Program-made: the position numbers and the translations under genes
Shown here: positions 23,377 to 27,527 of the stretch, piece after piece
Layout of the letters: each line of letters begins with the position of its first letter
Numbering within the stretch: position 1 is the stretch's first letter
Source of the DNA: Erysipelotrichaceae bacterium
GTDB taxonomy: Bacteria; Bacillota_I; Bacilli_A; RFN20; CAG-449
Direction: 5' to 3'
Length of the DNA stretch: 36,280 nucleotides
Assembly (NCBI GenBank): GCA_015059045.1
Contig: SVBD01000015.1
Location: 1 to 36,280 of the forward strand
The notes under the pieces: model-generated
What the model was told of the DNA's origin: nothing
What the model saw: only the letters and a program-made list of their open reading frames with translations
Database searches by the model: none

Positions 23377-24437
23377 CTGGTAAATTTTCTTCTTATCAAG
23401 GTTGGTCTGGAGCGGATGGTATTTTTAATGTAAGATTAAATGGTAATCAAGCTATTGGAGAAGAAGGAGATTTATTCTTTAATTTCTCAGATACTTATAT
23501 TGGCGAAGTTAATCCGGTTACCAAAAGAAGAAGTAATTATATTTTTAAAAATAATACTTTTGCTTATTATCAAGATGGGGAAATAGATTTTATTATTGAT
23601 AAAGATCATATTAGTCCAGAAAAGATAGAATCGCGTTCGCCTAATGATGCATTTAACTGGCTAGGAGATAGTTTAGTTATTGGTGATAAATATTACGCAA
23701 CAAGTTTATATATAGCAAAGCAAGGAGTATTAGGATTTGAACAAAGGGGTGAGGATCTAGTTAGATTTAATATTATTGATAAAAAAATCGACTTTGATTC
23801 AAGAACTCCAATAATTGATTTAGAAACAAATAAGTTATCTTATTTTTCTAGTGATGATAAATTACAAATTATCTTTGGCGCGGCTTATTTTGAAAATACG
23901 ATTCAGGCGGGAGCATTAAATCCTGATGGATATATTTATAATTATGGATATCGAGATGATAAAAATGCTTCATATTCACGAGGATTAGTTGTTTCAAGAT
24001 TTAAAGAAGAAGATATTGAAGATTTCTCTAAATATCAATATTTATCTTCTTCAGGATGGGTAAATGATATTACTCAAACAATTCCACTTTGTGAAAGAGT
24101 ATCTTGTGAAATGAGCGTTACAGAAATTAATGATATAAATAGTCCTTATTATGGTAAGTATTTATTAACGTATCAAAAAGATACTATTGGAGCTGAAATT
24201 TATATCGCTATTAGTGATAGTCCATATGGCAAGTTTGAAAACAATCAAGTTATCTATTCAACTCCAGAATTTTTATACATTGATGGAATAAGTCAATATA
24301 ACGCGAAAATGCATCCAACTTTATCAAGTAAAGATAAGTATGTTATTTCGTATAATTTAAATGAAAGTAGTTTTGGTGGAAATGATAATAATGGGGATAT
24401 TTATCATCCTAGATTCATTGATTTATATCAAATTTAA
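23373..24437 (+). pseudogene. Beta-propeller protein (DUF4185/glycosidase-like) lacking its N-terminus
   Basis: The frame opens with a TTG (23373) that overlaps the TGA of the truncated ATPase. No good ribosome-binding site is seen, and homology-like sequence already extends upstream (S-E-P-N-E-E-L before T-G-K-F). The body of about 354 residues contains G-A-D-G-I-F-N-V-R-L, F-F-N-F-S-D-T-Y-I-G, N-N-T-F-A-Y, N-W-L-G-D and a late M-H-P-T-L-S repeat-like segment. This is a pattern of five-bladed propeller glycan-acting or sugar-binding families such as DUF4185. No signal peptide is present although such proteins are often secreted, another sign that the 5' end is lost. Coupled translation from the ATPase stop cannot be excluded. 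Confidence 0.65.
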
Positions 24438-24470: not shown

Positions 24471-24611
24471 AATAAATTAAAAAAACCATATTTAGCATTA
24501 GTTATTTGTAAGATTAATTATTTTATTATGAATTTCTATTTTTTGTGTGGAAAGATATGGGGCAATAGAAAGTTAATAAATAAATCAAAAAAATGAAGTT
24601 TCTTGTTAAAA

Positions 24612-24691
24612 TTTGCTTTTTCGTGAAAAATATAAATAAAAAAATTTGCTTTTTCGTGTTAAATATGAATAAAAAAGTTTGCTTTTTCGTG
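24612..24691 (+). repeat. Tandem repeat, exact 33-bp period, before the second DUF4143 ATPase
   Basis: TTTGCTTTTTCGTG occurs three times without mismatch at 24612-24625, 24645-24658 and 24678-24691. The linkers are also alike (AAATAT-r-AATAAAAAA between copies). The 33-bp period is about three helical turns, so the sites share one DNA face. The last copy supplies a TTGCTT (24679-24684) that may act as -35 for TATAAT at 24703-24708 (spacer 18). An operator array is the simplest explanation. Confidence 0.85.
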
Positions 24692-24708
24692 CATAGTGGT
24701 TATATAAT
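24679..24708 (+). promoter_or_regulatory. Likely promoter of the second DUF4143 ATPase
   Basis: TTGCTT (24679-24684), 18-base spacer, TATAAT (24703-24708). The -35 lies in the third repeat unit, so a protein on the repeats would block RNA polymerase. Confidence 0.5.
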
Positions 24709-24739
24709 ATATTTATAATAGATATGAGGTGAAGTTATT

Positions 24740-26080
24740 ATGTTAAAAAGAAAAATATATAGTAAACTTATTGAATGGAAAAATAATTCAAATGGAACAA
24801 CTGCATTATTAATTGATGGAGCTAGACGTGTAGGAAAAAGTTTTATTGCAAAAGAGTTTGCTATTAATGAATATAAAAGTCATATTGTTATAGATTTTGG
24901 TATTGCATCAAAAGATGTTTTAGATTTATTTATATATGATAGTTCGAATTTAGATTTGTTTTTCGCAAAGTTGTCAGCATACTACTCAATACCATTATAT
25001 AGAAGAGAATCATTAATAATTTTTGATGAGATTCAACAATTTCCTAGAGCAAGACAACTTATTAAGTATTTAGTTGAGGATGGTAGATATGATTATTTAG
25101 AAACCGGTTCTTTAATTAGATTGAAAAAAAATGTTGAGAATATAATTCTTCCTTCTGAAGAAGAACATATAGAGATGTATCCATTAGATTTTGAAGAATT
25201 TTTGTGGGCACTAGGAGATGAAACGACTATTCCTTTGATAAGAAACTGTTTTGATAAGAAAATATCTTTGGGTGATAGTGTTCATAGAAAGATTATGAAT
25301 GAATTTAGACAATATGTTTTAGTAGGTGGCATGCCTCAATCTGTTAATGCGTATTTAAATGAAAAGAACTTTGAAGCGAGTGATATTGTAAAAAGAAGGA
25401 TTTTAAAATTATACAGAGATGATGTTAGCAAGTTTGCAAGTGGATATGAAAATAAAGTGTTTTCAGTATTTGATGGTATTCCTTCTCAACTTTCTAAAAA
25501 AGAAAAAAAATATTCATTATCTTCTATTAATAAAAATGCAAGATATAGAACATATGAAGATTCTTTTATATGGTTACATGAAGCTATGATAGTCAATAAT
25601 TGCTTTAATTCGACTGATCCGAATATAGGTTTAGCTTTAAGTGAAGATCATACTACACAAAAATGTTATATGGCTGATACAGGATTATTAGTTACACATA
25701 CTTTTATGGATACAAATTTTACTGAAAATAAAATATATAAAGCTATTTTGTTTGATAAATTAGGTATTAATGAAGGAATGATTATGGAAAATGCTGTAGC
25801 TCAAATACTCCGTTCAAATGGTCACAAATTATATTTTTATTCAAGGCATGATAATTTAAATAGAGAAAATAATATAGAAATCGATTTTCTTATTAAAGAA
25901 GGAACGAAGATTTGTCCAATAGAAGTTAAATCAGGCAACTATAATTCACATTCTTCTTTGGATAAATTTAGAATGAAATTTTCATCTAAAATTGGAAACA
26001 GTTATATTTTATATTCGAAGGATGTCATGATAAAAAATGGTATAATCCATTTACCATTTTATATGGCTATGTTTTTATAG
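24740..26080 (+). CDS. AAA-family ATPase with DUF4143 C-terminus (second copy)
   Basis: A 446-residue relative of the 4089 ATPase. Walker A is G-A-R-R-V-G-K-S (27-34), Walker B is L-I-I-F-D-E-I-Q (D96, E97), and a L-E-T-G-S-L-I sensor segment follows. The C-terminal DUF4143 part carries M-A-D-T-G-L-L and the nuclease-like E-I-D-F-L-I-K-E ... I-C-P-I-E-V-K-S-G-N-Y signature (Asp, Glu, Lys in the D-E-x-K arrangement). That signature is better preserved here than in the first copy. GAGGTGAAG precedes the ATG. Single-gene unit. The biological role of the family is not established. Confidence 0.87.
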   Translation: MLKRKIYSKLIEWKNNSNGTTALLIDGARRVGKSFIAKEFAINEYKSHIVIDFGIASKDVLDLFIYDSSNLDLFFAKLSAYYSIPLYRRESLIIFDEIQQFPRARQLIKYLVEDGRYDYLETGSLIRLKKNVENIILPSEEEHIEMYPLDFEEFLWALGDETTIPLIRNCFDKKISLGDSVHRKIMNEFRQYVLVGGMPQSVNAYLNEKNFEASDIVKRRILKLYRDDVSKFASGYENKVFSVFDGIPSQLSKKEKKYSLSSINKNARYRTYEDSFIWLHEAMIVNNCFNSTDPNIGLALSEDHTTQKCYMADTGLLVTHTFMDTNFTENKIYKAILFDKLGINEGMIMENAVAQILRSNGHKLYFYSRHDNLNRENNIEIDFLIKEGTKICPIEVKSGNYNSHSSLDKFRMKFSSKIGNSYILYSKDVMIKNGIIHLPFYMAMFL

Positions 26081-26089
26081 AACTAATGA

Positions 26090-26260
26090 GAAATCAAGAT
26101 AAGAAATTTAATAATTAAGTTATTATATATATTATCGTTAATTATTATTGGGGGTTCTTTATCTTTGCTTGGAATATCAATAATAATTTGGAGTATATGT
26201 GCGAAACGATATGAATCAACAGGTAGTAAAAAAGTGACGATTAATTTTCGTCACTTTTAA
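26090..26260 (+). other. Open 56-codon frame with a membrane segment but no normal start
   Basis: After a TGA at 26087-26089 the frame stays open to TAA 26258-26260. It would encode R-N-L-I-I-K-L-L-Y-I-L-S-L-I-I-I-G-G-S then a second hydrophobic run and a basic tail. No ATG or GTG occurs; ATA (26099), ATT or TTG (26165, with GGGGG upstream) are the only candidates. It may be a decayed small membrane protein gene. The last codons belong to the shared terminator. Confidence 0.25.
26230..26258. terminator. Bidirectional terminator between the ATPase and MFS genes
   Basis: AAAAGTGACGA (26230-26240) pairs with TCGTCACTTTT (26248-26258). The stem has A runs on one side and T runs on the other, so it serves both strands. 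It includes the last codons of the minus-strand MFS gene. Confidence 0.85.
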
Positions 26261-27443
26261 TTTGTTTTTTTCTTGCAATTAAGAAATATATTACATAAAT
26301 TACAAATGATAATAAAATTATAAATCCGGAAATGATAAATACAAATGGATTTCCTTTTGAATATATAGCGCTTCCTATTAATGGTCCAACCACATTACCA
26401 ATTGATAGCATTGTTTGTCTTGCGCCCATTATTTTACCATTGTCTTCTATTGAAGAATATTTTGATAATTCATTTTGTTCAAGTGGAGTAATTATTGATT
26501 TAAAGATACAATAAATTAAATGAGTTGATAGTAAGAAAATCATAATATTTTCTCCAGAAGAGAAAGTGATAAATGTCAACACTGAAGAAAGTAATACAAA
26601 ACTTAATAGAATATAACTAAAGTATTTGTTTTTAATCTTTTTAACAAGTGGAATCAATATTAAATTTGAAGCAGCTCCAACTAAACCGGTCAATAATACG
26701 TAATGTCCAAGTGTTGCAGGTTCATATCCAATATGAATAATATAAGTATCTAAGTATTTGCTAATTAAAACTTGTCCAATTGTTAAAGTAATTAATCCAA
26801 TTAATAATATATAAATTAATGGACTTAGTGAAACTAAACTTTTAATTGAAAATTTAGAATTAGATTTATTAAGATTTTTTTCGATGTTTACATCATTTAT
26901 GAAGAAGATGAATGTTAATGAAGTTAATAAGCATAAAATAAATTGGAAAAGGAAAATTTGAGAAATTGTAAGATTTAAATAGTTATATAAAGATCCTCCA
27001 ATTTCATAACCAAATGATGCTCCTAAAATGGAAAAGCAACTTAGTAATGAAAGATATTTGACTTTCTTTTCAGGAGTAGAAATATCTAAACACATAGAGA
27101 CAAATAAAGTATTTGGAGCGGAAACAAATATTCCCGCGATTACTCTAAAGAATAATATTAATAAAGGATAAGTATTGATAAAACCAAATCCTAATTGGGC
27201 TAATGCATAACCTAGAATTCCTAAAGCAATTAACCATTTTCTTCCGATTTTATCAGATAGGAAACCAAAGATAAATGCACCAATCACTTGTCCTAATGAC
27301 ATTAAAGAGAAAAAGAAGCCAAAATAGTAATCAGGTAGATTTAAACTATTGACGTAAGTTGTAGTTACTGGGTGGACTAAATTGATACAAATAGAATGAA
27401 GAAAGAATAAAATAAAGAAAATATATATTTGATATTTTTTCAT
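26241..27443 (-). CDS. Major facilitator superfamily transporter
   Basis: A 400-residue, 12-segment MFS protein. The conserved loop 2-3 motif is G-F-L-S-D-K-I-G-R-K-W. It is related to drug-efflux type MFS_1 proteins (G-A-R-Q-T and V-G-P-L-I-G-S in the second half). The start is the ATG at 27443-27441, which has AGGAG upstream on the minus strand and begins M-K-K-Y-Q-I-Y-I; a longer frame to 27500 lacks such a site. Substrate unknown. It is divergent from the M42 peptidase. Confidence 0.85.
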   Translation of the reverse strand: MKKYQIYIFFILFFLHSICINLVHPVTTTYVNSLNLPDYYFGFFFSLMSLGQVIGAFIFGFLSDKIGRKWLIALGILGYALAQLGFGFINTYPLLILFFRVIAGIFVSAPNTLFVSMCLDISTPEKKVKYLSLLSCFSILGASFGYEIGGSLYNYLNLTISQIFLFQFILCLLTSLTFIFFINDVNIEKNLNKSNSKFSIKSLVSLSPLIYILLIGLITLTIGQVLISKYLDTYIIHIGYEPATLGHYVLLTGLVGAASNLILIPLVKKIKNKYFSYILLSFVLLSSVLTFITFSSGENIMIFLLSTHLIYCIFKSIITPLEQNELSKYSSIEDNGKIMGARQTMLSIGNVVGPLIGSAIYSKGNPFVFIISGFIILLSFVIYVIYFLIARKKQIKSDEN

Positions 27444-27527
27444 AAATAACTCCTTTCTTAAAACAGATGTTATTATATCATTTAAAATAATTAATAACAT
27501 AATATTTAAAAAATATTTTTAATATTA

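Follow-up and report, generated by a model that had tools for sequence, protein, structure and literature searches.

A promoter array of direct repeats at a 33-bp step, a probable cognate operator of PDC-S01 ATPases

Introduction

Plasmid Rep proteins of the RepE/F and pPS10 type bind directly repeated words that lie beside their own gene and are private to each protein; they repress their own synthesis, and related Rep proteins are orthogonal to one another. Here we describe an array of comparable layout in a stretch of 36,280 nucleotides from an Erysipelotrichaceae bacterium (contig SVBD01000015.1, positions 1 to 36,280; hereafter the window). It stands in front of the gene for P0001, an ATPase of 446 residues with a DUF4143 region. 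As with the plasmid iterons, a private word is directly repeated beside the gene of its (here putative) binder. In contrast to the Rep proteins, the presumed binder is an AAA+ ATPase that also has a nuclease-like domain. Most of the genes lie on chromosomes, and nothing was seen of a role in replication.

P0001 shares a full-length model match with PDC-S01, a family of the AAA_14-DUF4143, COG1373-like type. In the available sections of the study on this family, which treat prevalence and phylogeny, PDC-S01 is given as an ATPase fused to a PD-(D/E)xK member, as ranking fourth in frequency among prokaryotic defences and as repeatedly transferred between domains; most candidates such as PDC-S01 are said there to still await validation (PMC12988326). 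In rumen genomes, no other single locus was as frequent as PDC-S01 (PMC13356809), and COG1373 appears among transferred gut genes (PMC10782964). No description of upstream arrays of DUF4143, COG1373 or PDC-S01 genes was found in the open-access literature, though a subscription paper or preprint may exist.

As judged by sequence comparison, the array consists of a word of 16 to 22 bp, present two to six times at a step of 33 bp, which overlaps the promoter, is confined almost wholly to the ATPase genes and has diverged in parallel with the ATPase across phyla. We propose that it serves as cognate operator for the ATPase encoded just downstream.

Results

Three copies of one word precede the ATPase gene and overlap its promoter

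The word TTTGCTTTTTCGTG is present in three exact copies, which start at 24612, 24645 and 24678 and thus follow each other at 33-bp steps, as the preliminary description had it. They lie in the 302-bp gap between a DUF4185 gene, which ends at 24437, and the ATPase gene (24740-26080, forward strand), and no tandem repeat in the window scores higher (TRF score 140; runner-up 76). The contention that such regularity exceeds chance was borne out by dinucleotide shuffles, which predicted only about 0.01 upstream regions per set with a 13/14-match repeat at any one lag. A logo of orthologous arrays (126 upstream copies) indicated that conservation extends past 14 bp, to a core of about 16 bp plus a weaker AAAAT tail. 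With this extent, the iteron cores occupy 24610-24625 and 24643-24658 (both AATTTGCTTTTTCGTG) and 24676-24691 (AGTTTGCTTTTTCGTG), all on the forward strand and each 33 bp past the previous one.

Two further properties ascribed to the array held in part. Copies 1 and 2 indeed have similar linkers (15/19 identical), whereas the linker of copy 3, which has to accommodate the promoter, is dissimilar (8-9/19). The copies share one helical face roughly rather than exactly, since 33 bp correspond to 3.14 turns at 10.5 bp per turn.

The probable promoter consists of a -35 element TTGCTT (24679-24684) within iteron 3 and a -10 element TATAAT (24703-24708), separated by 18 bp; a probable ribosome-binding site, GAGGTG, follows at 24726-24731 (all on the forward strand). 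This geometry is kept in orthologues, where the consensus last copy places TTGCTT 17 bp ahead of TATAAT. The suggestion that the last unit supplies the -35 element gained support from the comparative logo: the first T of this element is enriched in the last copy only, being found in 92% of last copies versus 66% of upstream copies, which have C in 25% of cases (Fisher p = 3e-5). A few loci from Lachnospiraceae and Eubacteriaceae (L068, L069, L071, L075 and L086) have a last copy that overlaps the -10 region instead. Since the last copy overlaps the promoter, a protein bound to it should hinder RNA polymerase.

Word and step are conserved in orthologues while the linkers diverge

A scan of genome contigs retrieved 80 homologues of P0001 at 55-79% identity from several phyla, nearly all of which have the array upstream, with a core AACTTGCTTTTTCGTG followed by C/A and then AAAAT. 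A lag of 33 gave the best repeat score in 72 of 81 upstream regions and a lag of 34 in a further 5, and a control stretch 0.8-1.1 kb upstream scored much as shuffled sequence does. When copies were scored with a single motif, neighbours were 33 bp apart in 122 cases, 32 bp in two and 34 bp in one. Leaving the step free between 21 and 51 bp gave 58 of 59 pairs at 33 bp and one at 32 bp (34 genomes). The number of copies ranged from 1 to 6, three being the commonest.

We considered the possibility that the array is a minisatellite that slippage keeps regular and that has little or no function. The variable copy number, the shared linkers of copies 1 and 2 in the window and the near-identical linkers of some arrays (L053, L055) would fit such an origin. 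Yet neighbouring units are 93% identical in their cores and only 40% identical in their linkers. As the linkers have diverged while cores and step were kept, the spacing appears to be under selection rather than a trace of recent duplication. The promoter-specific constraint on the last copy and the retention of the 33-bp step by unrelated words (see below) also argue against this explanation, which we regard as barely credible. Slippage had been put forward as a way to tune expression by changing copy number; copy number does vary, but linker divergence at a fixed period led us to reject slippage as the principal cause of the regular spacing.

Orthologues from hosts assigned to different phyla share the same upstream word, and a quick tree of the ATPases mixes host phyla, although errors in the binning of metagenome-assembled genomes may contribute. 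The genes that flank the array loci fall into small or single clusters and are not conserved; the word thus has no accompanying partner gene. No array with the exact word of the window was found on viral contigs.

Divergent ATPases have other words at the same step

Within the same host family, relatives of P0001 at 28-52% identity were found, with up to eleven matches in one genome; the words of their arrays include TGATTGCGCTTTTT, AAACTCGCTTGAAAAAGTTT, GTGCCAAAAAGTGTA, TTCCTTTTTTTTGA, GGAAAAACCGG and TGCGTAATTGCAAT. Taken over host family, plasmids and viral contigs, distant relatives (27-52% identity) have different words at a step of 33 (or 32) bp. Among divergent paralogues, a 13/14-match repeat was present at lag 33 in 23 of 41 regions and at lag 32 in 5 of 41, against 0.01 expected per lag. 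Relatives labelled as plasmid or phage (Bacteroidota, Agathobacter, Collinsella) have the same kind of array, and a set of viral contigs, drawn afterwards and without choice by motif, showed it at 33 in 15 of 27 cases and at 34 in one. Word similarity rose with protein identity (Spearman 0.66; r = -0.65 for word distance versus identity). The sequence sets are partly redundant, and these counts are therefore not independent events. By this comparison, each ATPase subfamily has its own word while the 33-bp step stays fixed. A search for the motif before other DUF4143 genes had been suggested: the relatives do have such arrays, but the word itself differs by subfamily.

The genome from which the window comes (1.44 Mb) encodes at least seven DUF4143 ATPases, two of them in the window. 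One paralogue, 51% identical to P0001 (C5:6883-8220), is preceded by TATATTGCGTATTATATA at steps of about 33-34 bp. In a congener (L231, 1-2682), the slot beside the same major facilitator superfamily transporter gene (78% identical) holds a different AAA_14-DUF4143 ATPase; in two other congeners there is no ATPase in the slot beside this transporter gene (window counterpart 24740-27500).

The first ATPase of the window (P0002, 4047-5282), upstream of which a loosely similar stretch had been noted, does not have the word of the window. Its best match is a different PDC-S01 model, and its relatives do not, as a rule, have 33-bp arrays. Arrays with a 39-bp step were found in 4 of 27 of these relatives and weaker repeats of 40-42 bp in others; upstream repeats at 39-42 bp were seen in L166, L167, L175, L176, L186, L177 and L188, some with inverted parts, e.g. 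TTTTTTCGGTTTAAAACCAAAAAA in L175. These repeats are possibly the operator type of this other PDC-S01 subfamily. A third DUF4143 group (L195, L205, L196) has 23-bp direct repeats before the gene (TGACAATATGGCGAA; ACCTGGGAAATTCCGG; TTCTACATTTTCCGGAATG). The period of the array may thus be set by the subfamily, though the cases are few.

Arrays are confined to ATPase promoters, with three exceptions

A repeat dispersed over the genome at sites unrelated to these genes would have been at odds with a role at the ATPase promoter. This was ruled out: there are no copies at many unrelated sites in the organism's own genome or in 50 genomes. The own genome has no further exact match to TTTGCTTTTTCGTG, and its one-mismatch matches are all single sites. 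In the 50 genomes, arrays were found at the ATPase promoter only, save for three extra arrays and two chance-like sites with 3 mismatches.

This confinement bears on the idea that the repeats are bound by a transcription factor of the host and that the ATPase belongs to a host regulon. Host regulators in general often act through operator arrays. Such a factor would, however, have to be restricted to ATPase promoters, and it would have to serve the same word before orthologues of hosts labelled as different phyla. Furthermore, in one genome (G403) the arrays of several ATPases (L123, L125, L129, L151) share the step but have unrelated words. We therefore consider a host factor very unlikely. 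A regulon of other genes was likewise dropped, as the arrays found away from an ATPase of their own resemble the local ATPase promoter array.

The first of the extra arrays (L192, 1-2601, on G439:C184) lacks its ATPase. A DNA cytosine methyltransferase gene follows it, another AAA_14 gene is adjacent, and the intact locus lies about 11 kb away; the sequence of this array departs from that of the promoter just past the -10 element. The second (L193) also lacks its ATPase and adjoins another DUF4143 gene. In the third case (L056, 2950-5540), the ATPase gene has an array on either side, the second directly 3' of the gene; an additional single iteron is found about 1 kb downstream and a lipoprotein-like neighbour gene on both sides, which looks like a tandem duplication with loss. 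The extra arrays resemble the local ATPase promoter array, of which L192 and L193 carry near-copies, and we read them as relicts of lost copies.

These cases could also be taken to mean that the array is an address for the ATPase-nuclease as a mobile or maintenance element (in copying, homing, segregation or immunity), with promoter control as a by-product, as in plasmid Rep-iteron systems. The gene and its array are the only conserved unit and are widely spread, solo arrays lie beside other DUF4143 genes and once next to a DNA methyltransferase, one gene stands between two arrays, private words recall iteron incompatibility, and the PD-(D/E)xK residues are conserved. Against this, no target-site duplications or shared element ends were seen (no systematic search was made), the three solo cases among the 50 genomes are in keeping with relicts, and a nuclease that cuts its own promoter would need self-protection. 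We find an element address unlikely, although less so than a host factor.

P0001 combines an AAA+ core with a putative winged helix and a nuclease-like fold

P0001 matched Pfam AAA_14 (residues 21-155) and DUF4143, both above cut-offs, and the PADLOC PDC-S01 models over its full length (residues 1-446, E 4.8e-110). An AlphaFold2 model, built with an alignment of 67 relatives, had a mean pLDDT of 89.7. Its secondary structure suggests that residues 1-157 form an AAA+ core, 163-232 a helical lid, about 237-291 a winged-helix region and 302-446 a PD-(D/E)xK fold. The Walker residues are conserved across relatives, as are E350, D382 and E395-x-K397 of the nuclease motif. By its PDC-S01 membership, P0001 is a candidate phage-defence gene product. 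A sequence search of solved structures gave chance-level matches only, and searches of NCBIfam and PHROGs with P0001 returned nothing useful.

The top Foldseek ranks for the model were ORC/Cdc6, the STAND proteins Apaf-1, NLR and Avs, and RuvB. DNA-bound Orc1/Cdc6 proteins, which were among the first matches, resemble P0001 in having an AAA+ core and a winged helix. Their TM-scores are just 0.24-0.27 by query length, and P0001 differs in its extra PD-(D/E)xK domain and in its setting, with 33-bp direct repeats in a promoter and no origin. Avs-type STAND ATPases (Avs3 and Avs4 were matched) have a related AAA+/STAND fold and a use in defence, but P0001 is without their large sensor repeats, and we know of no upstream arrays for them.

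Discussion

The features that mark an iteron-type operator, i.e. direct repeats at a fixed step by a gene, promoter overlap and a private word that diverges together with the protein, all appear at these loci from their sequences. Our proposal is that each array acts as cognate operator for the ATPase encoded next to it, a reading to which we give, as a whole, a probability of about 0.72; the best-supported mechanism would be repression by the ATPase of its own gene as a DNA-bound multimer. The ATPase is the likely binder because its family is the only factor common to all arrays and because the word is confined to the ATPase promoter, unrelated words sharing one step in G403. The winged-helix region and AAA+ core of P0001 and the presence of DNA-bound Orc1/Cdc6 among the nearest solved folds are consistent with this.

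In the proposed mechanism, each word would be occupied by a single protomer of the ATPase itself (or by a single oligomer unit), and neighbouring protomers would touch across the 33-bp step, i.e. about three helical turns. The assembly on the last copy would cover the -35 element and the spacer and so repress the gene. Less surely, a nucleotide state or a signal from an invader might pull the ATPase off the array and raise expression; derepression by invaders is speculation. As the words are private, several paralogues in one cell would not cross-regulate.

Several observations weigh against self-repression by the ATPase. The Foldseek TM-scores are low throughout (0.17-0.36 by query length). 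The residues that would read the word differ with the setting of the partial correlation (306-340 versus 231-260), with small effects, and a per-column mutual-information test gave a diffuse signal. Plain autoregulation does not predict the solo arrays of L192 and L193 or the array 3' of the gene in L056, unless they are relicts. Finally, it is possible that the upstream copies activate instead of repress.

A broader and rather doubtful proposal is that PDC-S01 ATPases are self-addressed DNA switches, held as a phased multimer on a private array that acts as the sensor. Invading DNA or an activated nucleotide state would strip the ATPase from the array, thereby derepressing the gene and freeing the nuclease domain; diversification of the word would keep paralogues orthogonal, and the arrays would perhaps be tradeable addresses.

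PDC-S01 genes are reportedly among the most common defence candidates of prokaryotes, yet the open-access literature yielded no mechanism for the family. At least one large branch of it is characterized by a phased array of private words, a putative operator. The finding is more general than the window, as arrays of the same step are present in several phyla, on plasmids and on viral contigs. A fixed-pitch promoter array with a private word for each subfamily offers a concrete candidate DNA ligand and a predicted stoichiometry along the DNA. The arrays thereby predict a natural library of orthogonal repressor-operator pairs that would be readable from genome sequence alone.
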